Position numbers and translations under genes: made by a program | Shown here: piece by piece, positions 14,237-58,441 of the stretch | Position numbering within the stretch: position 1 is the first letter of the stretch | Layout of the letters: every line of letters begins with the position of its first letter | Assembly (NCBI GenBank): GCA_947627765.1 | Contig: CANQXA010000008.1 | Coordinates: 1 to 58,441, forward strand | Length of the DNA stretch: 58,441 bases | Direction: 5' to 3' | DNA from: an uncultured Clostridia bacterium | Lineage (GTDB): Bacteria; Bacillota; Clostridia; Christensenellales; Borkfalkiaceae | Notes under the pieces: generated by a model | What the model saw: only the letters and a program-made list of their open reading frames with translations | Told to the model about the DNA's origin: nothing | The model's database searches: none

Positions 14237-14805
14237 ACGGTGAGGAGCTCCTTTTCTTTGGCGGCCGCCGCCTTATCGATCTGCTCGATGTACTTCGTGA
14301 CGCTCTTCTCGATATCGATCTCGCAGTTCTTCGCCTCATCCTCGGAAATCTCTTTCGCCGTCTTCATCTTCTTGACGGCCTCCATCGCCTCTCTTCTCAC
14401 GTTGCGCGCGGCGACCTTGGCGTCCTCGCCCATTCTGCGGGTCTGCTTGACAAGCTCCTTTCTGCGCTCTTCGGTGAGCTCGGGGAACACGAGGCGGATG
14501 ACCGTGCCGTCGTTTGCGGGCGTGATGCCGACATTGGAGGCAAGGATCGCCTTCTCGATGGGCTTCAACAAAGACTTATCCCACGGGCTGATCACGAGAC
14601 AACGCGCGTCGGCGACGGAGACGTTCCCGAGCTGGTTCAGAGGGCTCATGCCGCCGTACGCTTCCACTTGCAGTTTATCGAGAATGTGGGGATTGGCTCT
14701 GCCCGCGCGAATGGCGGCATAGTCTGCCGTCAGGACGCTGACCGTCTTCTCCAGCTTCTCTTCGAGTACGAGAAATACTTCATCTACCTTTTCGCTGTCG
14801 ATCAT
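14233..14805 (-). CDS. frr: Ribosome recycling factor
   Basis: Splits post-termination ribosomes together with EF-G. 190 residues, close to the standard 185. Contains IRAGRANPHILDKLQVEAYG near residue 30, SVADARCLVISPWDKSLL, and RKELVKQTRRMGEDAKVAARNVRR. ATG 14805 follows GAAGGAGATATT. Second gene of the pyrH operon. Confidence 0.98.
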   Translation of the reverse strand: MIDSEKVDEVFLVLEEKLEKTVSVLTADYAAIRAGRANPHILDKLQVEAYGGMSPLNQLGNVSVADARCLVISPWDKSLLKPIEKAILASNVGITPANDGTVIRLVFPELTEERRKELVKQTRRMGEDAKVAARNVRREAMEAVKKMKTAKEISEDEAKNCEIDIEKSVTKYIEQIDKAAAAKEKELLTV

Positions 14806-14829
14806 AATATCTCCTTCACCCGTTACGGG

Positions 14830-15540
14830 TCAATCATTACAAATGAGGGTGCCGATCTTCTCGCCGCAGACGGCGCGGAGGATCGAATCGCGTTCGCCGA
14901 GGGCAAAGGCAAGCACGGGAATGTTGTTCTCCATGCACATCGTGGCGGCGGTGGCGTCCATCGCCTTCAACCCGCCCGAGACGACGTCGCGGAACGTGAT
15001 CTTATCGTATTTTTTGGCATTGGGATCGAGGCGCGGATCGCGGTCGTAGATGCCGTCTACATTCTTTGCCATAAGTAAGACGTCGGCGTCGATCTCGCAA
15101 GCGCGCTGTGCCGCGGCGGTATCGGTGGAGCAATAGGGATTGCCCGTGCCGCACGCCATGATGACGATCCTGCCCTTCTCGAAGTGGTGGAGCGCCCTGC
15201 GCAGGATATAGGGCTCGGCGACGGAGATCATGTTGAGCGCGGTCTGCACGCGGGTAGGGATCCCCCGCTTTTCGATGGCGTCCATGAGAGCGAGGGAGTT
15301 CATGACGGTCGCGAGCATTCCCATGTGGTCGGCGGTCGTACGGTCCATCTGCGTGCCCTGCCGCCCCCTCCAAAAGTTGCCGCCGCCGATGACGAGCCCC
15401 ATCTCGACGCCCATCTCATGCACTTTGACGAGCTGGTCTACGACCCCCGAGATGACCTCTTCGTTGAGCCCGAAGCGTTGCTCGCCCGCGAGCGCTTCGC
15501 CCGAGAGCTTTAAGAGGACGCGCTTGAATTTTGCTTCCAT
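14830..15540 (-). CDS. pyrH: UMP kinase
   Basis: Amino-acid-kinase-fold enzyme converting UMP to UDP. 236 residues, starting MEAKFKRVLLKLSGEALAG, with GLVIGGGNFWRGRQ, DHMGMLATVMNSLA and CGTGNPYCSTDTAAAQRA. First gene of the operon; the predicted transcript starts about 20 bases upstream of ATG 15540, with only a weak AAGGCGGG site. Confidence 0.98.
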   Translation of the reverse strand: MEAKFKRVLLKLSGEALAGEQRFGLNEEVISGVVDQLVKVHEMGVEMGLVIGGGNFWRGRQGTQMDRTTADHMGMLATVMNSLALMDAIEKRGIPTRVQTALNMISVAEPYILRRALHHFEKGRIVIMACGTGNPYCSTDTAAAQRACEIDADVLLMAKNVDGIYDRDPRLDPNAKKYDKITFRDVVSGGLKAMDATAATMCMENNIPVLAFALGERDSILRAVCGEKIGTLICND

Positions 15541-15567
15541 GTTTTCCCGCCTTATTCCGTTTTTCTT

Positions 15568-15596
15568 AGTATATCATACCCGCGGCGAAAAATCAA
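15568..15596 (-). promoter_or_regulatory. Promoter of the pyrH-frr-uppS-cdsA-dxr-rseP operon
   Basis: Minus-strand TTGATT (15591-15596), 17-base spacer, TATACT (15568-15573) with an extended TG one base before the -10. Start near 15561. Confidence 0.8.
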
Positions 15597-15610
15597 GTGT
15601 TCACGGGATG

Positions 15611-15643
15611 AAAAAAGGACCCGAAAATCTTCGGGTCCTTTTT
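15611..15643. terminator. Bidirectional terminator after the 2405-residue lipoprotein gene
   Basis: AAAAAGGACCCGAA and TTCGGGTCCTTTTT form a long perfect stem with a four-base loop, ending the minus-strand lipoprotein gene ten bases after its stop. It is followed by the pyrH promoter. Confidence 0.9.
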
Positions 15644-15652
15644 GGTCGGAAG

Positions 15653-18600
15653 TTATTCGTTCTCGGTCACCACCACGTCGGTGCCTTCCATCTTGAACGT
15701 GTACGTTCCCGTCTTGGTTGTGATCGTCCAACTGCCGTCTTCGTTCTTTGTGAACGTTGCGCTTTGGTCGAACGTCACCATGTTGTCCTCGCCGATTGCG
15801 CCGAAGCCGTAGACTTGGATGACCGTGACGGTCTCCGTCTCCGAATCGTAGGTGTAGGCGAACATCACGCCCCACTTGCCGTCCTTGGAGCCAAACAGGC
15901 CCGCGTTGTAGAGGCTGAGCGTTACGTTCTCCACATCGGTGTGATCCTCGCTTGCAAAGGTGAAGTCCATGATGAACGCGAACATATCGCCGCTACTCTG
16001 CAAAACGTTGAGAACGAGGCGGGAATCGTCGGGCGAGCTCCAAATGCGGGTAAGATTCAGAGACTGCCCGTTCTGCCTGATCGACGCGGAGTAGATCGCA
16101 CCGTATTCCAAATAGGGCGAGTACAGCGTACGGAACAAGATGACGGTGTAGGTCGACGAAGTGCTCCTGAAGTTGTACTGTTCGACTACCGTGAGGCTAT
16201 CGAGGACGAAGGCATTCTGAGCTTTCCCCTCTTCGTTCTTCGGGCCGATGTAGAAGATCACGGAGAAGATCTGCTGCGCCGCGTTCTGCAAGAGGACTTG
16301 ATAGCCGCTGCCGAGCTGTTTATCCGTGCCAATGGCGTCGGGCTCGATGTTGAAGAACATGAACGGGATCCCTTGGGGCGCATAGGAGTAGAAGATACCC
16401 GAGACGTCGCCCTCCGTCCCGATCAAGAGGAGGTTGTAATCCTCTTGCTCGCCCTGCAAATAGGCGTAATCGAGGTAGTAGGTGTAGTCCGCATTGAAGA
16501 CGTCGAACACTTCGCGATCGTCGACGAGAATGGTGTAATCGTCTGCGTCGCCGGGCGTGACTGCCGTCCACGACCATGTGCCGTCCGCATTCTGTTCTTT
16601 GTTCTTGGTGATCTTCGCCGGGATCATCGAGTAATCCGAACCCGAAACCTCGAAGAGATACAGGATGTATTCGATTTGGTTGACGCCCTTTTCATCCGTG
16701 GTGAAGAGGGCCTGCACCGAGTAGCCGTAAGGAAGATCGATCTCGCCGAAGATGTAATAGTCCTGCTTATCGGTCGCCTTCTTGAGCGTGGCGGTGGTTC
16801 CCTCAGCGCCCTTGGTCAGCGTGTAGACGTACGCCTGATAGCTGTATTTCCCCTCTTCCGCGCCCGCGACTTGCTTGACGGCGACGAGATACTGCTGATC
16901 GGGCTCCACATAGTACATGACGTAAGTATCTCCGCCTTCGATCGTGAATTCGTAGATATCGCCCTGCGCGTACGGGTTGCCGTCGACATCGAGCGCGTCG
17001 CCCGCCCAATAGAGGGTGGTCTTGATGGTGACGCCGTCCGCCGTGATGGTCTCACCGGGCTTCGTGACTATATAGAGCTTGTATACGGGTTTTCTTTCGC
17101 GATTGTAGCCGAGAGCCAAACCGATCGTGTATTCGATCTGATCGGTACCCTTGACCGTGACGTAATACAGCGTGCCGTCCGTAGTGACATCCTGCTTGGT
17201 CACTTCGAGCTTCTGGCTTGCGGAATCCACGAGCGTGGGGATATCGACGGAGATCGTCTCCTTGCCCGATTGATCCGTATACAGGGTGACGGTGCCATCG
17301 TTTCCGTTGACATCGGAGTAGGTGATCGAGGATTCGACGGTTGCGCTGAATTCGCCCGCCTGATCGTCGAAGCTGCCATCCTGGAAGGTGAAGGTGTAGA
17401 CGATGCTGTCGATCGAGGTGACCGTCCACGTCCCCTCTTTCTCTTCGCCGGAGAGGATATCGTAGTAGTAGCCGTCAACGTACTTGAAGAGGAATTCGTC
17501 GATCTTGGTCGTATCTTCCTTCGTGTAGAGCACGATAAAGGTTTCGCCCTCGAACGCCTCGGAGACGACGGTGCCGTAGTACTTGGTATCGTCGCAGGTG
17601 AAGCCCGTATCGGTCAGCGTTACGTCGAGCGCCTTTTGAAGAGTTTCTCCCTCGGGCGTGTAGTAGAAGACGATGCGGCCGTCCATGTCGAACCACTGAT
17701 CGCCGCAGTCGATCTTCTTACCCTCGTGGGCGATCTCGTAGTCGATGACCTCTTCGCTCGGGATGTTGTAGAAATTGGAGTAGACGCTGAGAACGGCGGT
17801 GAGGTCGTAATTCTTCCCATCGTCGTCGGAGATGGTCTCCTCGCGGTTAATGGAGAAGAGGATGAACGCATTCGCGCCTTCGGATTCGATATACCAGACG
17901 CTGCAAACCTTCTCGTCCACCGTGCCCTTGACGCTCTTGATGGTGCCGTTGGTGTTCTTGCCGACCTCGGTCACGCTGTCCGCCTTCGCCGTGAAGGTGA
18001 CGGGATGACCCTGCGCGTCGCCGAGATAGGAGAAGTAGACGGTGATGCCTTGCTCGCTCTTTAAGATATATCCGACGGTCGAATGGCCCATGAGATAGAG
18101 GATATCGAAGGAGGCAGTGCCCGCCTTGGCGACCGTTGCCGCGCTCGGGATCTTATCTTCCCCGGGCGTGAAGGTGATCTTGTAGGCGTTGTTGCCGTCT
18201 TCGTCCGCCGTCTGCGTGAACCACATGATCTCGGTCTCGTTGAACTGCGCATAGATCGGCCTGAGATATTGGGGATTCTCGGGATCGGAATTATCGTAGA
18301 GCCCGAAGGAGATCGGATCGCCCTGCTTGTAGCCCTGCGCGGTGAATACGGACTCGAAGAAGTTGGCGAACCAATAGAAGCTCGCACAGGCGAGATAGTT
18401 GCCCTCTGCGACCGTATATTCTTGATATGCGGTGATCATGAAGAGGAGCATATAATCTTCGCCGCCCTCTGTGACCAAATAGAATTCGATCTCGTAGATC
18501 ACGCCGTCTGCCGCTTCGCCCTCGAAGCTGTAGACCGGGCCGAGCTTTTCGTCCGCATTCTCTTCATCGATGTTGAGTTCGGTGCCGACGATCTTGAGCG

Positions 18601-21600
18601 GGTTGCCCTGCGTATCGCAAGGATATGCGTCGCCGTAGTACGCCGCCTCTTCGTCCGCTTCGAATTGATAGAAGACGTCGGAGAGCTCCTTCGAGCCGAG
18701 CATATAGACGGCGTTGAGCATGAGCCAACCGCTGTACTCGTAGTCCTCGTACTCGTTCCCGTAGATGGCGGCTTTGATCTCGAACGTCCCGTTCTTCTCA
18801 GTAAAGTTGCAGTGAAGCGTGACGTCGAACATATCAGCCGAACTGTAATTGTACACAAGGACGACGACGCCGATCGTGTTTTCGGAATCGTTGCCGTAGT
18901 AGATGAGCCACGGTCCTTCGACTTCTTCGCCTTTTTCGTCCTTCAAGGTCGCTACGCCGTTGATCTCATAGGTGCCGTCGGGCGTGAAGGTCATCGTGTA
19001 ATTTTCGAACGTCTCTTCGCCCGCGATAACCTTACCCGTGAGCGTGAGAGCGGTCCCCGCCGTGTAGCGGTAGTAGGTCACTTGATCGAGCTCATAGGTC
19101 TCGCCGAGCGCCTGGTGCGTCGTCTTCGTATAGCCGCCGTTTGCGTCGCGCATCCAAATGGTGAGAGCGTCGCCCTCGCCCACTTCGAAGAAGCCGCCCG
19201 TCGTGCCGTCCGCGCCGTTGATGTAATACATATTGTCGCGGAATTCGACGGAGAACAGGGAATCGGAGTAGTAGATGACGTCGACGTCGCTCGTGACGTA
19301 ATCGAAGGTGTGCTTCGTCTTATCGTAGGTGACGAAGAAATTCTTGGATCCTGTGCCGAGCACGAGGTGCGTCCCGTCCACCGCGTTGTAGTAGGCGGTC
19401 GTCTCGAAGCCGAGCTTATCGATGTACCAGCCGTAGCCGAAGCCGTCGAGATAAGCCATGGAGCCGTCGGGAGCCTGGTACTTGCCCGCGATGCCCTCGT
19501 TGACGAGCACGCAGACGGGATAGCCGTCGTCTACGAAGATCTTCGCCTTCCATTCGAGAGGCTGATCCTGCCCTTCGACCGTGAAGGTGAGCAGATAGAT
19601 GTTCTCCTCGTCCGTGAGGGTGTAGGTACCCGTCGCGTGCAAGGTCTCGCCATCATCCTCATAGAGCTTGGCAACGCCGTCTTCGAGGAGCTCCACATAG
19701 TACCCTTCGAAGCCATCGACGTCTTGATAGCTGTCATCGACCACGCCATAGAGGGTCTGCAGTTTTTCGGGCTCGGTGAAACTGCCCGCTTCGAGATCGA
19801 ACTCGAAGTAGTAGGAGAAGGAATATCCTACGTAATCGGCAAGGTTGAGGGAGCCGTCATAGGCAAGGGTATAGGTCCCCTCGTAGGTCTCGCCGTCCGC
19901 CGTCGTATAGCGGCCGTAGTGGAAATAGCCGTCGAGCTCGAGGGTCGCGCCGCTCTCCGCTTGTAGCGTGACGTCGTAGTCCTCATCGTAGACGCTGAAA
20001 TAGTAGATCGGGCCGAAAGCGCTCGACTCGGTGTAGGCGATAAAGTTGACCGTAGCGCCCCCCGCCGTAGCGGTGAACGTGTACTTGGTATCGCCGAACG
20101 CGGTCGTGCCGCTCTTAGCGTACGTCCCGTCGGTCCAATTCCACTGTTCCTGTTCCCCGTCGTAGACGCCGTAGCGCGCACTGCCTGCGCCGTCGAGGAG
20201 CATTTGGTCGTAACCGTTCTGCGACTGATAGGTATTGGGCTGTTCGTCGAGGAGAACGTACGTCCCCGCAGTCTGCCCGACCGTCACCTTGATGTAGAGA
20301 CTGCTCAGCTTCTGCGCGGCGATATCGATGTAGTCAAAGACCCAATAGGAAACGTTGTCCCCCTCCGTGAGGTCGAAGCTCGACGAGGAGAGACTGCCTT
20401 CGGTGACCAGCCCGCCGTTGAAGAACAGCGTGCCCATGTATCTGATGCCGAGAGGATTGTACCAGAAGTAATTGGAGGCGTTGCCCTCTTCGGAGATCAC
20501 GATGTAGTTGGGCTGCCCGTCGATCTCGTAGGCGTAGTAGACGTTGAGCGCATCGGCGTTGGTCGTGACCCCGCCGACCGCAAAGCTCACCGAAGTGAAG
20601 GGAAGGCTCTCGACCGCGGACGTGGGATTCTGTGCGACGAGCGTGTAATACATCACGCCGCCGAGATCCCGAACGGTGTAGTAGCCGTCTGCGATCTTGA
20701 CCGCGTCGCCGCCCTGTTCGACGGGCGCATAGAGCGCCGCTTTCTTGGCGCCTGTAACGCCGTCCACCGTGACCTCGCTGTCGTAGAGCAAGACCATGGG
20801 ATAATAGAGGGAAGGGGAAGGCTGGCTTTCCTGATTGAGATGGATCCAAAGATATTCGGTGAACAGTTCATCGACGATTTCGAGGGTGATGCCCGAGCCG
20901 CCGTTTACGGTGCGGAAGGCGATGAGCGTCTCGCCGTCGGTCCCGTAGATCTCGATGATGGTGCCGAGCAGATCGCTGGTTTTGAGGATGTACTGACCTT
21001 GGATGGTCTCATCGCCCTTCGTGTAGGTCGCACTGTTGGTGAAGGTGCCGAAGCCGTCGAGCGTGACCGTCGCCCCGTCTGCGAGTTCAAAGGGCTCGCC
21101 GCCGTGATATAAGGTCTCGTTGCGGAGGATGAATCCCTGCGACCCGCCGCTGAGCGGAAGGGTGTGGAAGCCCGCAAGGAAGGTGTAGGAACCGTCCTTC
21201 GAGCTCGCATAGAGTTCGCCGACTTGGATCGCGCCGTTGCCCGCCGAACCCGTGAGGGCATACCGCCCCGTAATGGCGGTATTGGACTCTTCTTCGGTCA
21301 AGGTGAAGCCCCCGAAGCCGTCGAGGACGAGAACGTAGCCGCCCAAACGGCCGCGGCCGTCCTTATCCGTGAACTCAAAGTAGCCGTAAGTCCCCCTTTC
21401 GGAGCCGATCTGAATGAAGACGGGCGTCTGATCGGCGCCGTCGCCGTCTGGATCGTAATCGCCGATCATGAAATCAAAGCCCACGGGTTGACCGAGAAGC
21501 TCCGTATAGAAGGTGTAGACCCCGGCCTCGCCCGTGAATTGGAAGACGCCTTGAAGCGAAATAGGCTTCTCCGTGCCGTCGTCTCCGGTCGTGGTGATCG

Positions 21601-22870
21601 TATACGTCGCGCCGTAGTAGCCGTCGAGCGTAAGGGTGGTCTTCTCGTCGACGAAAGTATCGGGGTTTTCGGGATCGTAGTAACTGCTGTAAAGGTAGAA
21701 GGTGTCCTCATTGGCTTCGCGGTAGTAGAGGAACATCTCGTCGCCGACGGTCTTACCCTTCAGCGTCGCTTTGCCGACGGTGACCTCAAAGAGAGAGGTC
21801 TCGGCGTTATAAGTGCCCGTGAACGTCTCGCCGCCGCGGTGAAGGGTGACGGTGTCGCCGTCGAGGAAAATGACGTCGTCGCCGCCGAACAGGTCGGCAA
21901 GGCCGACGTTCCAAACCGCATAGAGACGGATATCGTCGGTGACGTTCGTGATCTGCTCGCCCGCTTGGTGGGTGACGTTGCCCTCGGCAGTATCCGCCCA
22001 ACCAAGGAAGTAATAATTATTGGGAAGATTGAAGTCCGCGCCGTCCGCAAGGGTGACCGAACCCTCGTAGTAGACGGTCGCCGAGGCGATATGCGCCGTA
22101 CTTTCGGGAATGTTCACGTTGTAGATGACGAGATAGGTCTCGCGCGCGAGGTAGACGGTGAAGCTCTCCTTCGTGCCGAGAGAATCCGAAGCGAAGGTGC
22201 CCTGCGTCTGGTCGAGCGTGAAGTGCTCGGGCGCGGCATAGGTGAAGGGCTCGCCGTAGATGCCCTTGCCCTCGGAAGTGACGGACTCGGCGGGCCAAGT
22301 CCCGTCCGCCTTCTGCTCGTAGACGTTGAGGGAATAGGTCGCGTTGTACTTCGCGGTGACAGTCGTCGTGGTAGAGGGCATGACGGTCTCCTGCGTGACC
22401 GCGGTGGTGCCGATGTACCAACCCGCGAATTCGAGACCCGTTTTCGGCGTGGGCTGTTTATCCGCGAGGAAGGTGAGCAGGTTGGAACCCGCGGCGACGT
22501 AGTAGGATGTCTCCCCTTCCGTCGTTGCGCCGTTGCCCACGGAAACGGTGAGCTGCTTCAAGGAAGCGTCTCTCCATTTTGCATAATATTTCGTGCTCTT
22601 TTCGGGCATGGTAGTGGGTAAATCGGTCGCCTGCGTGCAGCCTGCGTCTAAATACCAGCCGTCGAACACGAACCCGTCGCACGTGGGATCGGGCGGCAAG
22701 AGGGCGGTGATGTCCGCTCCCGCTTCCGCCACGATGGGCTCGATCGGCGTGCCGTCGCCCGTTTCGAAGGTCAACTTGGGTTTGCCGCCGCCGCACGCGC
22801 CGAGGGCGAGCGCAAGCGCAAACACCACGCCGATCAACGAAAGAAACAGCCGTTTCATAGTTTTCGACAT
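15653..22870 (-). CDS. Giant surface lipoprotein (2405 residues), InlB-type repeats plus LDGxG modules
   Basis: Predicted lipid-anchored surface protein of unknown function. ATG 22870 is chosen because AAAGGAG lies 7 bases upstream. Signal peptide residues 1-25 with lipobox LGAC (Cys26) then GGGK. Residues about 30-95, 120-160 and 270-330 are Listeria/Bacteroides (InlB B, Flg_new) repeats ending YYAKW, VTAKY and LYAVW. The remaining 2000 residues are Tyr-, Thr-, Asp- and Gly-rich, beta-predicted, with a recurrent LxLDGxGxxxY motif (encoded near 21620, 21320, 21055, 20190, 19930, 19445). No enzymatic motif, sortase signal or membrane helix was seen. The N- and C-terminal regions match the protein at 50582-55879, a paralogue. 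Own promoter and terminator: monocistronic. Confidence 0.85.
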   Translation of the reverse strand: MSKTMKRLFLSLIGVVFALALALGACGGGKPKLTFETGDGTPIEPIVAEAGADITALLPPDPTCDGFVFDGWYLDAGCTQATDLPTTMPEKSTKYYAKWRDASLKQLTVSVGNGATTEGETSYYVAAGSNLLTFLADKQPTPKTGLEFAGWYIGTTAVTQETVMPSTTTTVTAKYNATYSLNVYEQKADGTWPAESVTSEGKGIYGEPFTYAAPEHFTLDQTQGTFASDSLGTKESFTVYLARETYLVIYNVNIPESTAHIASATVYYEGSVTLADGADFNLPNNYYFLGWADTAEGNVTHQAGEQITNVTDDIRLYAVWNVGLADLFGGDDVIFLDGDTVTLHRGGETFTGTYNAETSLFEVTVGKATLKGKTVGDEMFLYYREANEDTFYLYSSYYDPENPDTFVDEKTTLTLDGYYGATYTITTTGDDGTEKPISLQGVFQFTGEAGVYTFYTELLGQPVGFDFMIGDYDPDGDGADQTPVFIQIGSERGTYGYFEFTDKDGRGRLGGYVLVLDGFGGFTLTEEESNTAITGRYALTGSAGNGAIQVGELYASSKDGSYTFLAGFHTLPLSGGSQGFILRNETLYHGGEPFELADGATVTLDGFGTFTNSATYTKGDETIQGQYILKTSDLLGTIIEIYGTDGETLIAFRTVNGGSGITLEIVDELFTEYLWIHLNQESQPSPSLYYPMVLLYDSEVTVDGVTGAKKAALYAPVEQGGDAVKIADGYYTVRDLGGVMYYTLVAQNPTSAVESLPFTSVSFAVGGVTTNADALNVYYAYEIDGQPNYIVISEEGNASNYFWYNPLGIRYMGTLFFNGGLVTEGSLSSSSFDLTEGDNVSYWVFDYIDIAAQKLSSLYIKVTVGQTAGTYVLLDEQPNTYQSQNGYDQMLLDGAGSARYGVYDGEQEQWNWTDGTYAKSGTTAFGDTKYTFTATAGGATVNFIAYTESSAFGPIYYFSVYDEDYDVTLQAESGATLELDGYFHYGRYTTADGETYEGTYTLAYDGSLNLADYVGYSFSYYFEFDLEAGSFTEPEKLQTLYGVVDDSYQDVDGFEGYYVELLEDGVAKLYEDDGETLHATGTYTLTDEENIYLLTFTVEGQDQPLEWKAKIFVDDGYPVCVLVNEGIAGKYQAPDGSMAYLDGFGYGWYIDKLGFETTAYYNAVDGTHLVLGTGSKNFFVTYDKTKHTFDYVTSDVDVIYYSDSLFSVEFRDNMYYINGADGTTGGFFEVGEGDALTIWMRDANGGYTKTTHQALGETYELDQVTYYRYTAGTALTLTGKVIAGEETFENYTMTFTPDGTYEINGVATLKDEKGEEVEGPWLIYYGNDSENTIGVVVLVYNYSSADMFDVTLHCNFTEKNGTFEIKAAIYGNEYEDYEYSGWLMLNAVYMLGSKELSDVFYQFEADEEAAYYGDAYPCDTQGNPLKIVGTELNIDEENADEKLGPVYSFEGEAADGVIYEIEFYLVTEGGEDYMLLFMITAYQEYTVAEGNYLACASFYWFANFFESVFTAQGYKQGDPISFGLYDNSDPENPQYLRPIYAQFNETEIMWFTQTADEDGNNAYKITFTPGEDKIPSAATVAKAGTASFDILYLMGHSTVGYILKSEQGITVYFSYLGDAQGHPVTFTAKADSVTEVGKNTNGTIKSVKGTVDEKVCSVWYIESEGANAFILFSINREETISDDDGKNYDLTAVLSVYSNFYNIPSEEVIDYEIAHEGKKIDCGDQWFDMDGRIVFYYTPEGETLQKALDVTLTDTGFTCDDTKYYGTVVSEAFEGETFIVLYTKEDTTKIDEFLFKYVDGYYYDILSGEEKEGTWTVTSIDSIVYTFTFQDGSFDDQAGEFSATVESSITYSDVNGNDGTVTLYTDQSGKETISVDIPTLVDSASQKLEVTKQDVTTDGTLYYVTVKGTDQIEYTIGLALGYNRERKPVYKLYIVTKPGETITADGVTIKTTLYWAGDALDVDGNPYAQGDIYEFTIEGGDTYVMYYVEPDQQYLVAVKQVAGAEEGKYSYQAYVYTLTKGAEGTTATLKKATDKQDYYIFGEIDLPYGYSVQALFTTDEKGVNQIEYILYLFEVSGSDYSMIPAKITKNKEQNADGTWSWTAVTPGDADDYTILVDDREVFDVFNADYTYYLDYAYLQGEQEDYNLLLIGTEGDVSGIFYSYAPQGIPFMFFNIEPDAIGTDKQLGSGYQVLLQNAAQQIFSVIFYIGPKNEEGKAQNAFVLDSLTVVEQYNFRSTSSTYTVILFRTLYSPYLEYGAIYSASIRQNGQSLNLTRIWSSPDDSRLVLNVLQSSGDMFAFIMDFTFASEDHTDVENVTLSLYNAGLFGSKDGKWGVMFAYTYDSETETVTVIQVYGFGAIGEDNMVTFDQSATFTKNEDGSWTITTKTGTYTFKMEGTDVVVTENE

Positions 22871-22895
22871 AAGATAGCTCCTTTTCCCCATGACC

Positions 22896-22915
22896 GTATA
22901 AATGAATATTTATAC
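22896..22915. repeat. Inverted repeat in the lipoprotein leader
   Basis: GTATAAAT-GAAT-ATTTATAC, an eight-base perfect inverted repeat in the 5' leader between the promoter and the ribosome site. It could be a protein-binding operator or an mRNA hairpin. Confidence 0.45.
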
Positions 22916-22938
22916 ATCGGATGAGGGCATTATTGAAT

Positions 22939-22968
22939 AGTTTAACATAAAAACGCGGACGATGTCAA
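22939..22968 (-). promoter_or_regulatory. Promoter of the giant lipoprotein gene
   Basis: Minus-strand TTGACA (22963-22968), 18-base spacer, TAAACT (22939-22944) preceded by an extended TG. The leader is about 60 nt. Confidence 0.75.
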
Positions 22969-23095
22969 ATGATTTTTGGGGGGAAAGTATTTGAATCAGT
23001 AATATTTACTATAAGTGTGGGTTATAAGATAATGAATTTTTGGGAATTGCCCACCCCCTTGGTCCCCCTCCCTTCCCGTCATCCTGCCCCTCCTC

Positions 23096-23183
23096 GTCAT
23101 TTCGACCAAGCGAGCGATAGCGAGCGCGTGGAGAAATCTCATGCACAATAAGGTAGAGATGTCTCGACTACGCTCGACATGAC
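23096..23183. repeat. Palindromic element, GTCATTTCGA family
   Basis: 88 bases with imperfect terminal inverted repeats: GTCATTTCGACCAAGCGAG at one end and CTCGACTACGCTCGACATGAC (20-base core) at the other, with GAGAAATCTC and GAGATGTCTC inside. The layout matches MITE/REPIN-like repeats; no coding capacity. Confidence 0.7.
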
Positions 23184-23352
23184 GATAGGAGGATTGCCCA
23201 CCCCCTTGGTCCCCCTCCAATGGAGGGGGTAGGTTGGGCGGCGTTCCCCAATGGAGTGGGTAAAACGCGAACCCCCTCCTGCGGAGGGGGGTAGGGGGGT
23301 GGGTGGACACCCCCGCGTTTGTTGCCCACCCCCTTAGTCCCCCTCCATTCCC

Positions 23353-23499
23353 GTCATCCTGCCCCGACCGAAGTTTCTATTTGCGGTACTAAGGTCGGCA
23401 CGAGCCGCAGGCGAAGTAGGCGGATGCGAAGGATCCCGAGGTACGAAGTCCGTCATCGACCAACGGGATTCTTCGGGGGCTACGCCCCCTCAGAATGAC
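23353..23499. repeat. Palindromic element, GTCATTCTG family, copy 2
   Basis: 147 bases from GTCATCCTGCC to CTCAGAATGAC. The right half is the reverse complement of the interior of the element at 7419-7514 (shared CGGACTTCGTACCTCGGG and GAAGAATCCCGTTGG). It has an extra 50-base segment not seen in copy 1. Confidence 0.75.
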
Positions 23500-23522
23500 A
23501 CGGGAAGGGGTGGGTGGAGGGT

Positions 23523-23558
23523 AAAAAAAATCCCACGGAGACCGTGGGATCTTTTTTT
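23523..23558. terminator. Bidirectional terminator after the 1393-residue lipoprotein gene
   Basis: ATCCCACGG-AGA-CCGTGGGAT stem flanked by eight A and seven T residues, 30 bases after the stop codon at 23589. Confidence 0.9.
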
Positions 23559-23588
23559 CGATTTCTTCCTTCCGGAAGAGGAGAGGTT

Positions 23589-27770: not shown

Positions 27771-27831
27771 GTCTTGTTCGTCCTCCCCTTTTGAAATAGT
27801 TAGAATTTGCCATTTATACAATAGCAACAAT

Positions 27832-27860
27832 ATTCTACATCATAATTTTGGGTCTGTCAA
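27832..27860 (-). promoter_or_regulatory. Promoter of the 1393-residue lipoprotein gene
   Basis: Minus-strand TTGACA (27855-27860), 17-base spacer, TAGAAT (27832-27837). The leader is about 55 nt and contains TGTATAAAT, as does the leader of the giant lipoprotein. Confidence 0.85.
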
Positions 27861-50581: not shown

Positions 50582-53500
50582 TTACTGCATTTCGATCGCA
50601 AATCCGCCGCCGTCGGGGACGATCTTCACCCGATAGACGGAGCCGCCCGCAGTCACGGTCCAGCTCCCGTCGTCGTTCTTTTCGAACACGGCGTCCCGCT
50701 TGGTGGAGTCGTATTCCTTGAAGCTGAGAAGGTAGACGACCGTCATATCCGCCCCGTCCATCAGATAGAGGAAGGAGATCTCGTAGCGGATGCCCGAATA
50801 GGCGATGGCGTAGCCGTACTCCCCTTCGCTCTCGGCGTTCTCCACGAATCCGTTCTCGCCGAACGTGAGGTCGAACACGTACGCCGAATAGTCGTAGGAG
50901 CCCGTCGTCGTATTCATGTTCTGGCGCACGAGGGCGGCCTTCATCTTTGTCAGCATCTTCCACTCGGTCGTCGTGGTGACGCCCGACTCGGGCAGGGTGA
51001 GACGCATGACATCCAACTTTTCGTAGCCGTCGATATACGCCGAACCCGCCCAAAGCTGGGTCACGGTGAGTTTGCCCGCGCCGCGGATGTTGTACGAACT
51101 CTCCACGGATACGGAGTGAAGGATGAACTGCTTCCCGCCGTCGTCGAGGAAGAAGCGGACGGTGTAGACGACGCCGTCCTTGCCCGTAACGGGCAGAGCC
51201 TTGGCATAGCCGAACGAGTAGTGGCTGTTGCCCGTATCCTCTTTCGCGGCGGAGAAGGTCCCTTCATAGGCGATCGGATTGCCCGCGGTATCCTGCACGG
51301 GCAGGGCGAGCGTGAGGGCGTCGGCGAGATAGTAACCGCCTACCCTGCGCCCGTCGATCGTGGCGGTAAGCCCCGCAAAAGCGCGGTCGGTATAAGTGCC
51401 CGAACTGCCCTTCGGAGCCGTCTGGAAGGTGTTCCCTTCGCCCGTGAAGTGAAGGGTGAGATCGTACTCTTCGAGCAGGGTATCGGCACCCGCGCGGTAT
51501 GCGAGGGTGACAAAGAGATGCCCCGCAAGATATTCGGCGGTCACGGTATACCCGCCTTCGCCCGCAAGGGTGGCGTTTGCGGTGAACTGCGCGCCGTCCG
51601 GCGTAAAGACGAGCGCCGCGTCCGCATGGTCTTCGAGCGTAAAGGTCAGAGCCCCGCCCTCATAGCGCGTGTACTTTTTTCCGTTGTAGGAATAGGTCTT
51701 CCCCGCGCCGAACAGCGGGATCGTGGAACTTGCATGATCGCCCGCAACGGCGTACCGCGTGACGGTATTCCTCTCCACGGTGTAGAAGTACTCCACGCCC
51801 TCCGCGATGAGTTTCGCCTCGCCGAAGATCACCGAACCGAAGCTCTCCGAATAGAAGGAGGCGAGATGACTTGAATGGTCGATGAGGGCGAACGTTCCGT
51901 CGCCGTAGGAGAATACCGCGGAAAGGCGCGCCGATTCGAAGTAGCCGAGCCCTTCCGCAAAGAAGAGCACGCTGCCCGTGAAGACGTCGCCGTAGCAGTT
52001 GGTATAGGACGCGCCGCCGTAGCCGTCGAGGGCGAGCACCGACCAATCTTTCCCCAAATAGACGTGGTTTGTGTCCTCCGTAAAGAGACGGTAGACGTAG
52101 GTCGTCGTATCGTCCGCGGTCAGGGTGTCGAGCAGGAAGCGGAAGGTCTTCCCGTCCGCCTCGAAGAGATAGCCGCCGCCCGTGAGAGGCTCATAGGTCC
52201 CCTGAACGGCGTCGCCGTTTTCGGTATACGTCGCACCGCCGTGCCCGTCGAGATAGAGCGTCCCCGCGCCGCTTTGCACACCCTCGAAGGAGGCAAAGGC
52301 GTAGTTGCCGTAGGGCAGGGAGCGGAGATCGAGCTCTCCCGAATCATCGATGTCGAAATAGAAGGAAGTCGAAGTGGGAAGCCCGCTCTCCCAGATCCAA
52401 AAACGGACCTGTTTCCCGTCTGCGCCGTTTGTAAAGTCGCGGTCGGTCGTCGTCTCCCCGCAGGTGCCGAGATACATATTGCCGTAATACTCGTTGCCTT
52501 CGGCGTCGATGTAGACGGCGTTGCGGTTGGGATAGCCCGCGCTGAAAACGCTCCCCCCGCCCTTCACATCGAAATCGCCGATCCTGTGGGCGATCTGCGC
52601 CTGATAGAGGGGCATGGTATCCACCTCGCCGCCCAAATTGACGGGATAGGTCCCGAGGATATAGTTGACCGCGGCGCCCTCTTTCGGGGTTATGGTGTAT
52701 TCGAGGAAGCCCTCGGCGTAATTTTTGGTGCGGGCATACGTTGCCTCCGAGACGGACGTCTCATCCGTCAAGCCGTCGTAGGAGTAGAAGAACGCATTGC
52801 CCCTGCCGTCGAGCACGAGATAGCGGTCCTGCGTGATGCCGTTGTTGGCGTCCATTTCGTACCAGAATCCTGCGTCGGTGAGCACGCGGTCCACCTTGTT
52901 GCCTTCGGGATCGGCGGCGAGCACGAAGATGGGCGCGTCCTCCACGTCTTCGGAGGGCAGGAAGTAGAAGAGCTGACCCTTGCCCAAGCCGATGGTAAAG
53001 ACGATCGAGCCCTCATAGGAATCTTCGCCCGCCGTGTAGAGATAGACGCCGTACCCGTCCGTCGTGAAGTTGGAGAAGGTATAGGGGGTGGACTGTTGGA
53101 CGAAGGTGCCGCCGCCCGCGTTTTCGAAGCGCTTGAAGCGGAATGCGTCGTAGTCGGTGAATTCTTCGTCCTCCATCTCCGCAAGGTGGGCGGTGAGGGT
53201 GAAGTCGTACTCGTCCGTCTTGCCTGCGACGGGCGCCGCCGTGCCCTCGCCGACGAAGCGGATCAGCCCGCTGCTGAGCCGGAAAGCGAGGTAGACGCGC
53301 TCTCCCGCAAAGTAGAGGGCGCCGTAGTAGAAGTTCTCGGGCTCGCCGAAGGGGAACTCGATGCTGTACAGTGCGGCGGGATCGACAGGATGGAACTCCC
53401 GCGCGCCGCTTTCGGTGTAGAAGAGATGGTCCGTCCCGCCGTAGGTGAAGGTGTAGAAGTCGATATAGCCGATGGTGGACGTATAGGCGATCTCTTCGTC

Positions 53501-55879
53501 TTGATAGGTCGCCGTGCCCGCCGTGTAGTCGAGGACGAGCCCCTCGGCGACGGTGACGGTATCATGCTCGTCGGGCAGACGGATCGCGGCGGTGTGCCTT
53601 ACGGGATCGACCGTAAAGTCGAAGGTGTTCTCGTAGTATTCGCCCGTGACTTTGTTCTGCGTCCTGAGGAAAGTATAGTAGGGAGCGCTCTCCGTCCCCT
53701 TCTTTTCGACCGAACTCATCAGCTCGGAATAGAGCACATAGACGGGCTCGCCGATGAGATTGTAGTCGTAGACCGTCCAAAACTCTGCGTCGCCGTTCTC
53801 GAAGACGTAGAGGAAGCCGTCGAACATCGCGTTGAGGACGAAGACGTCCCCGATCGGATACGCGCCCACGAGGCCGCTGTTTGCCCCGCTCTTTGCGATC
53901 ACGCGGTCGATCTCATAGTCGCCGTAGTCGAGGTCGAGGCGGAAATAGTAGTAGGTGGTTTGGGTGACAAAGCGGACGAGAAGGTAGTCGTCGATGACGT
54001 CGCCGCTGTCCGTCTCATAGCTCCACAGCCATGTGATGACCTCGTAGGTCCCCTCTTCGGCGCCGTAAGCGCCTTCGCCGTAGCCGTCGAGGTAGAGCGT
54101 CTCGTCGGAGCCCTCCCACTTGTCGTTGTACTCGTTGCGGACGCCGTCGTCCATTACGGCGAGCGCCTTCACCGTCCCGACGTCTTCATATCCGCCCGGG
54201 ACGGCGGGCACGGGCGCGGTAAGATCGAGATGGAAGGTGAACTGTTTGAGGATGCCCGAGAAATCGCGCGTATAGGCGAGATAGAGCCCCTCGTTGCCGT
54301 TCCATACGCCGTCCGCGAGCCATTCGTAGTACCCCGAAACGGTGAGCACGGGCTCGCCGAAGATCTGATATTCGTAGTTCGTGTTGTTGTAGTGGTATTC
54401 GAGACCGTTCAACCCGTTGAGGTAGAGGATGATGCCCGTTTCGGCGTCGTAATAATAGCCCTCCTCCTCGAGGTTCTGGCGGCGGAACACGATCTCGCCC
54501 TCGCCCGTGGGCTCATAGAGATTGAAGAGGAACTCCTCCTCGCCGTAGAACTTAAAGTAGCCCGTCTCGAAGTCGATGCCGTACGTTCCGCTCACCGAAA
54601 CGCCGTCGCCGTCCGTGTAGATGACGGCGCCGTTCTCTTGGATGGCGAGGGTCGCGTCGGTGCCCTCGAGATCGTGATAGGTGCGCTCATAGGTATCGCG
54701 GAAGTAGAGGAAGGAATAGCTCTCGGGGAGCAGTCTTCCGCTCAGCCCGCCGATGGTAAAGAGCATGGTATCGGGATCGTACGTTCCCTTTTGCTCTTCG
54801 ACGCCGTCCCGCTCGAGATAGACCGTTTTCTCCTCGGTCACGGAGGGATAGAGGACGTCCTGCCCGCCGAAGAGGTCGCGAAGCCCGCCTTCCCAGCGCG
54901 CGTAGAGGTGGATGCCGTTTTCGTCGAGATCCTCGATGACGTCCCCCGCACGGTAGACGACGTCCCCGTCCTCGCTCAGCGCCCAGCCCGCAAAGCGGTA
55001 GACGCCGTCAAGAGTAAAGCCGCACGCGAGCGCCTTGATCTCCGCGCCGTAGAGGGCGGTCTGCACCCGCATCGTCCCCGTATAGGAGACCCCTTTGGGC
55101 GGATTGGCGTCGTAGCGGACCCCGCAGAGTTCGCGGGCGAGATAGAGGGTGAACGTCTCCCCGACGCCCAGAGAAGGAGAGGAGAGACGGGCGTTTTCCA
55201 TGGCGACGTCGTAGGTAAAGTGCGCGGGCGCGGGATGGGCGACCGTGCAGTCGAAGGGTTCGCCGTAGAAGGCGGCGCCCGACTCCGTCTTGCCCTCGCC
55301 GTAGTTGCCCCCGGCGTCCTGCGTGTAGACGGTCATCGTATATTCGGCGGTGTATTTTGCGGAAACCGTGAGCCCCCTTTCGGACATGGTCACGTCGTCC
55401 GCGATGGGAACCGAGCCGAGATACCAGCCCGCGAAGGTCAGCCCCTGCTTGACGGAAACGGGCTCTTTGCCTTCGAGAAAGCTCTTCACGTTCTCGCCGA
55501 CCCGAAGCTCGAAGGAGGTCTCGGAAAGAGTCCCGCCGTCGTTTGTGGTCAGCGTGAGGGTGCCGAACGCCTCCCGCCACTTGGCGTAATAGGTCGCGCC
55601 CTTTTCGGGCATGACGCTTGGCAATGTCACGGCAGAGCCCGCCGCGTCCTTGTCCTCATACCAGCCCTCGAAGACGTAACCGAGCCTTTCGGGATCCTTC
55701 GGGAGAAGCCCCGAGATGTCCGTGCCCGCTTCGGCGACAATGGGCGGAATTTCGGTGCCGCCGAAGGTCTCGAACGTGAGCTTGACCTTTTTGCTTCCGC
55801 CGCACCCTGCGAGGGCGGCGAGCGCGAGGGCAAGGAGCGCGATGAGCGCGTAAAACAGACGGCGCGTGCGTTTTTTCAT
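50582..55879 (-). CDS. Giant surface lipoprotein (1765 residues), paralogue of the 2405-residue protein
   Basis: Predicted lipid-anchored surface protein of unknown function. AAGGAG precedes ATG 55879. Signal peptide with lipobox LAGC (Cys26). Residues 33-97 (LTFETFGGTEIPPIVAEAGT to TYYAKW) align throughout with the corresponding region of the protein at 15653-22870, as do GLTFAGWYLGS, FYGEPF and FTLYLARE. The central 1300 residues carry LYLDGYGEGAY-type motifs (encoded near 54080, 52805, 52245, 52020), and the ending DAVFEKNDDGSWTVTAGGS aligns with SATFTKNEDGSWTITTKTG of the other protein. No catalytic motif or wall anchor. The domain count differs, so the paralogues have diverged by loss or gain of modules. 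Confidence 0.85.
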   Translation of the reverse strand: MKKRTRRLFYALIALLALALAALAGCGGSKKVKLTFETFGGTEIPPIVAEAGTDISGLLPKDPERLGYVFEGWYEDKDAAGSAVTLPSVMPEKGATYYAKWREAFGTLTLTTNDGGTLSETSFELRVGENVKSFLEGKEPVSVKQGLTFAGWYLGSVPIADDVTMSERGLTVSAKYTAEYTMTVYTQDAGGNYGEGKTESGAAFYGEPFDCTVAHPAPAHFTYDVAMENARLSSPSLGVGETFTLYLARELCGVRYDANPPKGVSYTGTMRVQTALYGAEIKALACGFTLDGVYRFAGWALSEDGDVVYRAGDVIEDLDENGIHLYARWEGGLRDLFGGQDVLYPSVTEEKTVYLERDGVEEQKGTYDPDTMLFTIGGLSGRLLPESYSFLYFRDTYERTYHDLEGTDATLAIQENGAVIYTDGDGVSVSGTYGIDFETGYFKFYGEEEFLFNLYEPTGEGEIVFRRQNLEEEGYYYDAETGIILYLNGLNGLEYHYNNTNYEYQIFGEPVLTVSGYYEWLADGVWNGNEGLYLAYTRDFSGILKQFTFHLDLTAPVPAVPGGYEDVGTVKALAVMDDGVRNEYNDKWEGSDETLYLDGYGEGAYGAEEGTYEVITWLWSYETDSGDVIDDYLLVRFVTQTTYYYFRLDLDYGDYEIDRVIAKSGANSGLVGAYPIGDVFVLNAMFDGFLYVFENGDAEFWTVYDYNLIGEPVYVLYSELMSSVEKKGTESAPYYTFLRTQNKVTGEYYENTFDFTVDPVRHTAAIRLPDEHDTVTVAEGLVLDYTAGTATYQDEEIAYTSTIGYIDFYTFTYGGTDHLFYTESGAREFHPVDPAALYSIEFPFGEPENFYYGALYFAGERVYLAFRLSSGLIRFVGEGTAAPVAGKTDEYDFTLTAHLAEMEDEEFTDYDAFRFKRFENAGGGTFVQQSTPYTFSNFTTDGYGVYLYTAGEDSYEGSIVFTIGLGKGQLFYFLPSEDVEDAPIFVLAADPEGNKVDRVLTDAGFWYEMDANNGITQDRYLVLDGRGNAFFYSYDGLTDETSVSEATYARTKNYAEGFLEYTITPKEGAAVNYILGTYPVNLGGEVDTMPLYQAQIAHRIGDFDVKGGGSVFSAGYPNRNAVYIDAEGNEYYGNMYLGTCGETTTDRDFTNGADGKQVRFWIWESGLPTSTSFYFDIDDSGELDLRSLPYGNYAFASFEGVQSGAGTLYLDGHGGATYTENGDAVQGTYEPLTGGGYLFEADGKTFRFLLDTLTADDTTTYVYRLFTEDTNHVYLGKDWSVLALDGYGGASYTNCYGDVFTGSVLFFAEGLGYFESARLSAVFSYGDGTFALIDHSSHLASFYSESFGSVIFGEAKLIAEGVEYFYTVERNTVTRYAVAGDHASSTIPLFGAGKTYSYNGKKYTRYEGGALTFTLEDHADAALVFTPDGAQFTANATLAGEGGYTVTAEYLAGHLFVTLAYRAGADTLLEEYDLTLHFTGEGNTFQTAPKGSSGTYTDRAFAGLTATIDGRRVGGYYLADALTLALPVQDTAGNPIAYEGTFSAAKEDTGNSHYSFGYAKALPVTGKDGVVYTVRFFLDDGGKQFILHSVSVESSYNIRGAGKLTVTQLWAGSAYIDGYEKLDVMRLTLPESGVTTTTEWKMLTKMKAALVRQNMNTTTGSYDYSAYVFDLTFGENGFVENAESEGEYGYAIAYSGIRYEISFLYLMDGADMTVVYLLSFKEYDSTKRDAVFEKNDDGSWTVTAGGSVYRVKIVPDGGGFAIEMQ

Positions 55880-56014: not shown

Positions 56015-58441
56015 TTACGCTTTCTTGCTGAACAGGATCGCGTTGGTTTCGTTTAAGACGTCCGTGAAGACGAGCGTTTCGCCCTTGACCTGTACGAACC
56101 AATAGGTGTTGTTCCAATAGACGTGGGCGCTCGACGTGTTGATGAAATTGCTTCCGTAGATCGGGGCGGCGGCGCCGTCGATCGTCAGTTTGGAACTCTT
56201 GATCTCGAGCGTATGCTGTCCGCCTTCGGAAGTCCACGTCGTTTCGCTGATATAACTGCCGCCGACTTTCAAAGAGCAGGAACCGCTCCCTGTAAAGTTA
56301 CACCATGCCTTTTGGACGCCGCTGTCGTCCGTCGTGGAGATCGCATAGTTGTCGATCGAGGCTACGGTATACGTCTTGCCGCCGTAAACGTACTCGATCC
56401 CGTTTCCGTCCGCGGTGAGCTTGGCGGGGACGAGGGTCCCGTCCTCTTTGAACCATTCGGTCGAGGGAATATCGGGGGTGAAAATGCCGACCTTATCCTC
56501 TTGGATGTTGATCGCATAGCCGTCGCTGTCCTGCCAAATGCCCTGCAAGTCTTCGGGGACGGCGAGGGAGGGCAGGGGCTCTTCGCCGCCTTCGCTCTTT
56601 TTCTCGGTGAAGACGACCGTCTTGCCGCCGCCGTAGGAGACGAACGTCAGTTTGAACGTCGCCACGGTATCCCCTTCGAAGGAGAAGGTATACCACATCC
56701 CGTTGCAGAACGCCGTGCCGCTGTGCCCGTCCGCGGAATAGGAGACAATCTCGAGCGCGTCGTCCCCCCAATGGGCGATGGGCTCATACTCGCTGTCCGA
56801 GCCGGGATCGTAGGCGGGATCGTCGAAGTAGAGATCTTTCTCCCCTTCGGCGGAGAAGAGGGTGCGGTAGTTCGCGAGCTTATCGCCCTCCGCCCCTTGG
56901 TATCCGCTGTAATCGGAGATCGTTGCCGCGGGGAAGACGTTTCTGTACGCGACCGTCGCATATTTATACAAGATGTAATCCTGCGATGCGTCGTACGCCG
57001 CCTTTCCGAAGAAGAGGACGGACGTCTTGCCTTGGGATTCCGAAGAGAAGATGAGGAACTGCCCGTCGCTTGTGAGCTTCAAGGTATATACGACGTTGTC
57101 GACGGTCACGGTATAGAAGTTCCCCTCCGCCGCCTTGGTCGCCTTGTAGGAGAGGGCGGTCCCGTCGTTTGCGGTGTACCCCTTGGCGCCGTACTTGAAG
57201 GATTTCTCGCCGATCTTGATGTAGGGCTCCTTCCAGCCCATCAGCCGCCAATAGCCCTGCCACTCTTCGCCGAACGCGTCCGATTCCACTTCGGGAAGGG
57301 GTTCGGAAGAGGCGTCGAGCGTGAATTCATACTTCATATAGCCGCCGAATTCCTGCAAGACGGGCTTTTCGGTGAGCGAAGCCGTCCAATAGCTGTCGTT
57401 GTAGACGGCGTGCGCGGTCGTTTCGTCGGTGTAAAATACGAGGAAGGAAACATCCTTAACCGTCGCCTTGCCCGCGGCGTCGATTTTCAGCGCGCCGAGG
57501 GTCGCATTGTTCCAAAGGGTGCCATAGAAACGGGCGGGGAATCCGACGTCGGGCGCGCTCCCCTTCGCAAAGAGAATGTGGTTGGAACCGATCGCGAGAT
57601 GAAGCACTTGATCGCCGATCCAATCGAGCGTATAATTCCAATTCCCCGCGCGGAAGACGATGGCGCTTTCCGATTGCTCCTTGATCTCGCACGCGCTGCC
57701 GTTATAGAGAAGCTCTGTCTCCGTCACGGAGAGCGTGGTTTTGATGTTGGTCTTCGTGAACTGCGTCCAGTCCCCCTGCCACTTCTGCGGGATGGACGTC
57801 GTCGGCGCGGGCCCCTCTTTTTCTACAAACGTCGCCTTAACGGTCGTATTGTCCTGCACTTGGAAGGTGTATACCCCGCCCTTGCCGAGCGTTTCGGCAT
57901 GGTCGTTTACGGTGAACGTCTCGACGGTGTAATTTTCAAGCGCGGTGACGGTGACCGTCACCGTTTCGCCCTTAATATAGCCCTGTTGGGAAGCGGGCGC
58001 GCTCAGTTCGATCGTCCCCTTCTCCGCATCGTACTCCTTCGTCACGGTGTAGTAGACAGTCGGCGCGGGCCCCTCTTTTTCTACAAACGTCGCCTTGACG
58101 GTCGTGTTATCCTGCACTTGGAAGGTGTATACCCCGCCCTCGCCGAGCGTTTCGGCATGGTCGTTCACGGTGAACGTCTCGACGGTATAGTTTTCGAGGG
58201 CGGTAACCGTCACCGTCACCGTCTCGTCCTTGATATAGCCCTGCCGGGAAGCGGGTTCGCTCAGCTCGATCGTCCCCTTCTCCGCATCGTACTCCTTCGT
58301 CACGGTGTAGTAGACAGTCGGCGCGGGCCCCTGCTTTTCGATGAAGGTCGCCTTGACGGTCGTATTATCCTGCACTTGGAAGGTGTATACCCCGCCCTCG
58401 CCGAGCGTTTCGGCATGGTCGTTCACGGTGAACGTCTCGAC
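56015..58441 (-). CDS. Repeat-containing surface protein, partial (5' end off the window)
   Basis: Open to the right edge; the apparent start at 58426 is a GTG inside a repeat, so it is not real. Visible 808 residues. First come tandem 86-residue repeats (one partial, two complete) with YTVTKEYDAEKGTIEL, GYIKxETVTVTVTALENYTV and VYTFQVQDNTTVKATF, matching divergent InlB B-repeats (Flg_new_2). Then three beta-rich regions, each starting with a QGxW motif (WQGDW near 57780, WQGYW near 57260, LQGIW near 56545) and ending in a hydrophobic F-x-K strand (ILFAKG, VLFFGK, ILFSKK), recalling lipocalin-like folds. No sortase motif at the C-terminus. Signal peptide presumably lies outside the window. 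Confidence 0.8.
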   Translation of the reverse strand, partial: VETFTVNDHAETLGEGGVYTFQVQDNTTVKATFIEKQGPAPTVYYTVTKEYDAEKGTIELSEPASRQGYIKDETVTVTVTALENYTVETFTVNDHAETLGEGGVYTFQVQDNTTVKATFVEKEGPAPTVYYTVTKEYDAEKGTIELSAPASQQGYIKGETVTVTVTALENYTVETFTVNDHAETLGKGGVYTFQVQDNTTVKATFVEKEGPAPTTSIPQKWQGDWTQFTKTNIKTTLSVTETELLYNGSACEIKEQSESAIVFRAGNWNYTLDWIGDQVLHLAIGSNHILFAKGSAPDVGFPARFYGTLWNNATLGALKIDAAGKATVKDVSFLVFYTDETTAHAVYNDSYWTASLTEKPVLQEFGGYMKYEFTLDASSEPLPEVESDAFGEEWQGYWRLMGWKEPYIKIGEKSFKYGAKGYTANDGTALSYKATKAAEGNFYTVTVDNVVYTLKLTSDGQFLIFSSESQGKTSVLFFGKAAYDASQDYILYKYATVAYRNVFPAATISDYSGYQGAEGDKLANYRTLFSAEGEKDLYFDDPAYDPGSDSEYEPIAHWGDDALEIVSYSADGHSGTAFCNGMWYTFSFEGDTVATFKLTFVSYGGGKTVVFTEKKSEGGEEPLPSLAVPEDLQGIWQDSDGYAINIQEDKVGIFTPDIPSTEWFKEDGTLVPAKLTADGNGIEYVYGGKTYTVASIDNYAISTTDDSGVQKAWCNFTGSGSCSLKVGGSYISETTWTSEGGQHTLEIKSSKLTIDGAAAPIYGSNFINTSSAHVYWNNTYWFVQVKGETLVFTDVLNETNAILFSKKA
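57803..58441 (-). repeat. 258-bp tandem repeats
   Basis: Units begin at 57803, 58061 and 58319 (exactly 258 bases apart, 86 codons), the last running off the window. Units differ at only a few bases, mostly at Ser/Arg/Gln and Lys/Asp positions, so they are recent or homogenised duplications. Confidence 0.95.

Follow-up and report, generated by a model that had tools for sequence, protein, structure and literature searches.

The giant gene of the analysed window (the whole stretch of 58,441 nucleotides) encodes a lipoprotein of three successive parts: InlB-type repeats, an array of LDGxG units and copies of a second module, CT. The LDGxG repeat is real and has no entry in the libraries searched; the C-terminal half is, as predicted by family profiles, four diverged CT copies, three clear and one weak. 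The kind of protein remains that of a modular surface lipoprotein; the CT module and a partner gene are more informative additions than the LDGxG repeat. We lean towards reading it as a modular protein held at the cell surface by a lipid anchor, in which a stalk carries binding heads.

Gene structure and domain architecture

15653..22870, minus strand: giant lipoprotein gene (2405 aa, stop included)
22793..22870, minus strand: signal peptide and lipobox, residues 1-26 (..LALGAC, C26), read by eye from the sequence
22939..22968, minus strand: promoter-like site TTGACA-18-TAAACT, TG before the -10 (consensus scan)
15612..15643, minus strand: intrinsic terminator hairpin with T-rich tail (hairpin folding and shuffles)
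21881..22774, minus strand: InlB-type (PF09479/TIGR02543) repeat region, residues ~33-330 (Pfam, NCBIfam)
19298..21883, minus strand: LDGxG array, residues ~330-1191 (profile self-alignment and unit matches)

An earlier note on this DNA had described a 2405-residue lipoprotein, and both the open reading frame from 22870 to 15653 on the minus strand and the lipobox with C26 were found. An ATG at 22891 is also in frame, but the start at ATG 22870 is favoured because AAAAGGAG precedes it; the gene has a good ribosome-binding sequence 5' of its start. The strong promoter also claimed for the gene was not borne out by the scan, which returned 5 promoter-like sites against 4.0 +/- 2.1 in shuffles; with a count not above shuffles, the site at 22968-22939 is weak evidence. 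The strong terminator did hold: the hairpin at 15643-15612 folds at -21.4 kcal/mol (z -4.44), and 0 of 200 shuffles were equally good. This hairpin is missing from the consensus scan list. We infer a single-gene transcript. No RNA family reached its gathering score in window positions 14500-28500.

Against Pfam and NCBIfam, searched to E 1, only InlB-type repeats match the giant protein, in agreement with what had been claimed. PF09479 matches at E 1.4e-16 in three stretches (best stretch 33-98), scoring 60.7 bits against a curated cut-off of 27; TIGR02543 also matches, and a pattern search places GW-type cores at residues 69, 148 and 288. The view that LDGxG units form the bulk of the protein had to be given up: the array takes up ~860 of 2405 residues (~36%), and residues 1338-2396 are occupied by the putative CT copies. 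The C-terminus, read by eye, ends in ..VVVTENE with no LPXTG-like motif, so that the reported lack of a wall anchor stands.

The LDGxG array

Seven units, one of them weak and partial, pass the threshold used.

21506..21658, minus strand: LDGxG unit, residues 405-455 (22.0 bits; independent HMM 12.0)
21185..21343, minus strand: LDGxG unit, residues 510-562 (17.2 bits; independent HMM 12.3)
20927..21082, minus strand: LDGxG unit, residues 597-648 (21.2 bits; independent HMM 9.5)
20042..20233, minus strand: LDGxG unit, residues 880-943 (16.6 bits; independent HMM 3.5, not significant alone)
19778..19960, minus strand: LDGxG unit, residues 971-1031 (25.0 bits; independent HMM 5.8)
19571..19666, minus strand: weak partial LDGxG unit, residues 1069-1100 (8.0 bits)
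19298..19486, minus strand: LDGxG unit, residues 1129-1191 (24.1 bits; independent HMM 0.2, not significant alone)

The higher scores (8.0-25.0 bits) come from a model of which the giant protein was part, iterated over 43 family members. The independent HMM was trained solely on three proteins from other genomes (L026-L028) and matched at residues 404, 512, 598, 891, 973 and 1141. On 400 shuffled sequences it gave three domains of at least 5 bits, one of them 8, and by these shuffle scores three units are clear, one is moderate and two are not significant alone. The motif or a near form of it occurs at all six places where it had first been noticed (LDGYYG and LDGYF at two). The internal repeat is recovered by self-alignment of the family profile, at E 4.8e-20, 5.9e-18, 1.9e-14 and weaker values over residues ~330-1180, but plain BLASTP of the giant protein against itself finds none; the repeat is visible to profiles only.

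The unit spans 55 positions, with conserved G1, Y3, L11, L13, D14, G15, Y21, G31, Y33, F44, F52 and F54. The 39 members longer than 1400 residues carry 5-9 units each (median 6), and the giant protein at least seven, or perhaps ten counting spacings. In an alignment of the array that kept 41 of 43 rows (L038 and L045, with <500 residues in the region, were dropped), 76 columns hold one residue in at least 75% of the rows: 30 G, 16 Y, 10 L, 9 F, 5 D, 2 R, 2 T, 1 E and 1 A. The absence of H, C and K from these columns argues against a catalytic site common to the members in this region; the analysis applies to the array, CT lying outside it. Hydrophobic lag-2 periodicity is not clear in the LDGxG region (z 1.1, against a clear z 4.1 in the CT region), so a beta structure is proposed for the unit from the i,i+2 pattern among its conserved positions; the unit is probably all-beta.

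The description of the module as one of unknown function was supported by Pfam, NCBIfam and the sequences of solved structures, none of which gave a convincing match. From the unit alignment, in which 86 units passed the filter, 75 remained after redundancy and 70 were printed as references, 40 units were picked by hand (35 from the loci, 5 from the window). Chitin_bind_4 matched one of these 40 weakly (E 0.0014), and DUF3994, among 12 families, matched two (best E 0.057); neither was accepted. The MORN repeat (PF02493) was likewise set aside, with a match in 1 of 41 members at E 0.48. Profile comparison found no similarity between LDGxG and CT, or between LDGxG and the InlB-type repeat. In the partial literature coverage available, queried with terms other than the motif itself, nothing was found on the module.

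It is possible, though we hold it only tentatively, that the unit represents no new family but a divergent tandem form of DUF5640, presumably a lipocalin-like small beta domain, which may bind small hydrophobic molecules. Profile comparison with the DUF5640-region sequences L149, L151 and L153 gave a probability of 64.9 and a score of 26.1, the best of 150 windows from other surface proteins scoring 17.3, and by eye a DG turn, a GTYxV strand and F/Y strands follow one another in a similar way. Yet the first set, L149-L151, had given a probability of 40.6 and a score of 23.4, and L150, which looks like another repeat type, was swapped for L153 after that; L151 is itself below the Pfam cut-off. 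As single sequences the three score 19.0, 13.4 and 14.5, the first being exceeded by one of its 60 shuffles (19.8), and the null was built from single sequences, not alignments. Nor is DUF5640 among the 12 Pfam families matched by the 40 units to E 10. The distant tie is no more than suggestive.

The CT module

CT is a module of ~230 residues, and the following copies were predicted in the giant protein with an HMM that did not contain it.

18131..18859, minus strand: CT copy 1, residues 1338-1580 (27.1 bits)
17384..18079, minus strand: CT copy 2, weak, residues 1598-1829 (11.7 bits)
16523..17296, minus strand: CT copy 3, residues 1859-2116 (41.2 bits)
15683..16345, minus strand: CT copy 4, residues 2176-2396 (30.1 bits)

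Many members have C-termini that align with one another, and this HMM was built from those of 15 other members, chosen by eye; an HMM iterated from the whole C-terminal half had collapsed onto its query, and other members' C-termini were used instead. On 200 shuffled sequences the best score was 15.6 and the next 4.4 and below, and copy 2 is uncertain because one shuffle exceeded its 11.7 bits. The CT assignment rests on the family profile, because window-to-window comparison of the copies as single sequences gave nothing (five pairs, probabilities <=0.6). A broadened CT profile also touched L034, L035, L037, L044 and L091, so the module may be wider than counted. The profile used to survey CT across the order contains the giant protein's four copies, and its strong CT scores are not independent.

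Most other CT-bearing members have one copy, and L005 and L039 have about two. A paralogue in the same window has one:

50582..55879, minus strand: paralogue, 1765 aa, with lipobox, InlB repeats, LDGxG units and one full CT
50585..51532, minus strand: CT of the paralogue, residues 1450-1765 (403 bits; paralogue in the HMM)

The length of the giant protein, 2405 residues against 1765, is largely explained by multiplication of CT. No Pfam family or solved-structure sequence gave a convincing match to CT. The candidates rejected were glutaminase (a single weak match, E 0.18), a phage tail-fibre domain (1 of 19 rows, E 0.0043, weak) and Big_3 (2 of 19 rows, best E 0.039, among 22 families).

Exchange of the C-terminal part

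Members of the family have the N-terminal part and the array in common, and what follows downstream is either CT or LRR_5 (PF13306). Pfam finds LRR_5 in 17 of 41 homologous segments, and the NCBIfam leucine-rich repeat adhesin HupY/LrrG occurs in 5 of 41 members; among solved structures, BspA-like LRR proteins and the choline binding protein PcpA match the LRR_5 part. The earlier note had seen no adhesin signature, which holds for the giant protein but not for these relatives. Because a similar stalk is followed in relatives by a single CT or by BspA-type LRRs, the end would be the interchangeable functional part.

The ends follow descent. On a tree of the N-terminal part the CT label changes 4 times, against a mean of 13.7 in shuffles, and 0 of 500 shuffles were as low; one of the four changes comes from a truncated row (L052). 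The giant protein is not part of the main clade of partner-linked CT members; a moderately supported fork (94/95) places it as basal in a larger mixed group. Given this position, its CT copies may have arisen otherwise than by simple multiplication inside that main clade.

A partner gene linked to CT

56015..58441, minus strand: gene upstream of the paralogue, related to the InlB-type partner family; it runs off the window

This gene lies ~135 bases from the paralogue and matches PF18998 at 22.0 bits, below the cut-off of 23.6. A related InlB-type gene stands upstream, on the same strand, in all 12 full-CT loci (>=300 bits), against 3 of 26 loci without a full CT; the comparison took in 38 of 40 loci (L038 and L067 left out) and one family gene per locus. 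The three matches outside the full-CT set are L034, at a distance of ~2.8 kb, L066, which is weak, and L052, whose member belongs to the CT clade but is truncated. Of the twelve partner genes, ten could be resolved as ORFs, with gaps of 10-279 bases and products of 647-1507 residues; in L050 and L060 the caller settled on an antisense frame instead. Across the neighbouring genes of 41 members, InlB-type repeats were found in 10 and 2. No other recurrent surface or substrate family appeared near members among the best 25 of 44 families, GH16 occurring once.

The downstream opposite-strand neighbours in L042, L047 and L072 are mutually similar (68-73% identity). Three neighbours that were scanned, taken as those of these loci, are LigD-type DNA ligase/primase-polymerases.

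Such linkage, in full-CT loci and beside the window paralogue, would be expected if CT bound the InlB-type protein encoded next to it and the pair captured a ligand, the giant protein being a solitary relative with a partner encoded away from its own locus. We regard this two-protein complex as an open but minority option. Three of the twelve full-CT loci supplied the partner queries, and L033 (198 bits) and L039 (46 bits) have CT with no partner match, the upstream DNA of L057 being too short to judge. The giant gene itself has no partner gene beside it: its upstream neighbour, at 23589-27770, is another lipoprotein gene, unrelated to the partner family by BLAST. Moreover, gene linkage is not contact.

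Distribution, locus and divergence

In support of a module that recurs across the order, the LDGxG unit profile matches large ORFs in 20 of 200 genomes of the order, its own included. These genomes fall in 6 families and in 11 of the 102 genera sampled. Within the sample, the genus itself contributes matches from 5 of its 7 genomes, the other genera of its family none from 6. Across 391 genomes of the class four match, all of its own genus (own included), and across 398 genomes of the phylum only its own; distant forms may be missed here, since the profile was trained inside the order. CT is rarer than LDGxG: of the 200 genomes of the order 4 match, two weakly. ORFs in other families share the layout of an InlB-type start followed by LDGxG units, and by pattern 9 of the 10 with the start in view have a lipobox, L096 being the exception. 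L085 has one ORF with 13 LDGxG units beside one with 10, and at L035:9818-18938 two family genes are adjacent in tandem. Plasmid and phage collections gave no match at 1e-5 to the array region of the paralogue.

A search with the giant protein finds a match at E 1e-3 in 45 of 61 genomes (its own and 60 relatives), in many of them owing to InlB-type repeats alone. At the stricter E 1e-20, matches remain in 25 of the genus's 37 genomes and in 1 of the 24 from elsewhere in the order. The 40 named loci comprise 38 from uncultured Clostridia ('Lapin' samples), one from Clostridiales HAN102 and one from a BRZ_PB bin. The source bacterium is probably from rabbit gut, 'Lapin' being French for rabbit.

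Divergence within the genus is strong. In 36 other genus genomes the best long match is 33% identical (residues 107-1469), with N-terminal pieces reaching up to 49% (residues 6-386), while the amino-acid-kinase-family protein encoded next to the giant gene, which we take to be PyrH, is 79-90% identical in 38 other genus genomes. The sequence before pyrH was compared at 30 loci, the window's own included, of 40 matches (up to 1.5 kb, two <500 bases; ORFs >=90 codons), and in the 29 other genomes nothing there matches CT, the giant protein or its upstream neighbour. The giant gene therefore looks like a lineage-specific arrival or relocation. The usual gene order is tsf-pyrH. An elongation-factor-Ts-like motif lies within 1.5 kb upstream of pyrH in 9 of 29 genus relatives, and this order seems to be broken in the window at 14830-15653, the giant gene preceding the kinase gene.

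The 631 bases at 22900-23530, between the giant gene and its upstream neighbour, are largely dispersed non-coding repeats: as a query they hit 136 pieces in their own genome, themselves included, and the best other copies are 88-91% identical over ~150-180 bases. The neighbour beyond them (23589-27770), ~720 bases from the giant gene, encodes a 1393-aa lipoprotein; Pfam offers nothing convincing for it, a zinc-ribbon at E 0.049 being below cut-off.

A decoy or immune-facing coat protein, pressed to vary and lacking a specific ligand, would fit this divergence, the lineage-specific location with dispersed repeats alongside, and the several related ORFs per genome (at least 5 distinct ones each in G006, G007, G023 and G035, related-gene numbers per genome being lower bounds because scoring was limited to five candidates in each). 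We consider it unlikely, because the conserved unit motif, the conserved CT, head classes that follow the tree and the partner linkage argue for a specific function.

Proposed function

Our preferred reading, a lipid-anchored stalk with binding heads, builds on features legible in the sequence: an anchor motif, three repeat types with their limits, exchange of ends, multiplication of CT and strong divergence. The lipobox would tether the protein to the membrane, and the InlB-type repeats together with at least seven LDGxG units, each probably all-beta, would make up the stalk. The CT modules at the C-terminus would face outwards and bind a ligand, the likeliest being a polymer or protein in gut contents, and having four diverged copies could increase avidity or widen the range. 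The division into stalk and head is read from the order of the sequence parts; surface exposure, the beta fold, the binding role and the ligand are likewise inferred. A stalk that is kept while its end piece changes points to binding more than to catalysis.

That the protein is a surface enzyme from a family not yet described is very improbable: CT has no characterised relative, but neither Pfam nor NCBIfam yields an enzyme family at a useful level and the conserved array columns look structural, in keeping with the first impression that no enzyme motif is present.

Extended further, the stalk-and-head reading would describe an order-specific two-component capture system, in which an LDGxG stalk carries exchangeable CT or LRR heads, the CT branch is paired with the InlB-type gene, and the whole diversifies fast by paralogy and head multiplication. 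This is a speculative proposal, to which we give rather little weight; if true, such a system would be like known glycan- or host-binding surface systems in function and unrelated to them in sequence.

Limits and profiles are now given for two recurring modules missing from the domain libraries searched. Large unannotated surface-type proteins of a little-known Clostridia lineage come under one architecture with exchangeable ends, one branch of which has a linked partner gene. An opaque 2405-residue protein is thereby divided into pieces of a size suited to expression, structure determination and binding assays.

Comparison with known systems

For the LDGxG unit, the nearest likenesses are distant. 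DUF5640 (PF18692) is a small domain in which a GTYxV-like strand follows a DG turn, and its weak profile similarity to the unit varies with the sequences compared; in the matches examined it is seen once each, whereas LDGxG units stand in tandem. The best solved-structure sequence for the unit profile is the CshA surface-associated protein (6szc), with 18 of 54 positions at E 0.046, which is not significant.

At the level of whole proteins, there is a likeness to InlB B-repeat (Listeria-Bacteroides repeat) proteins (PF09479, TIGR02543), whose repeat the giant protein has in three stretches behind the lipobox; beyond residues ~33-330, however, it consists of the LDGxG array and the predicted CT copies, outside those models. 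Internalin combines LRRs, InlB repeats and a wall anchor. The giant protein differs from it in having no LRR family (Pfam to E 1) and, judged by eye from its ..VVVTENE terminus, no LPXTG. The likeness to BspA-type LRR proteins (LRR_5, PF13306) runs through the 17 of 41 array-sharing homologues that carry LRR_5, whereas the giant protein and the window paralogue have CT at that place, with no LRR_5 match.
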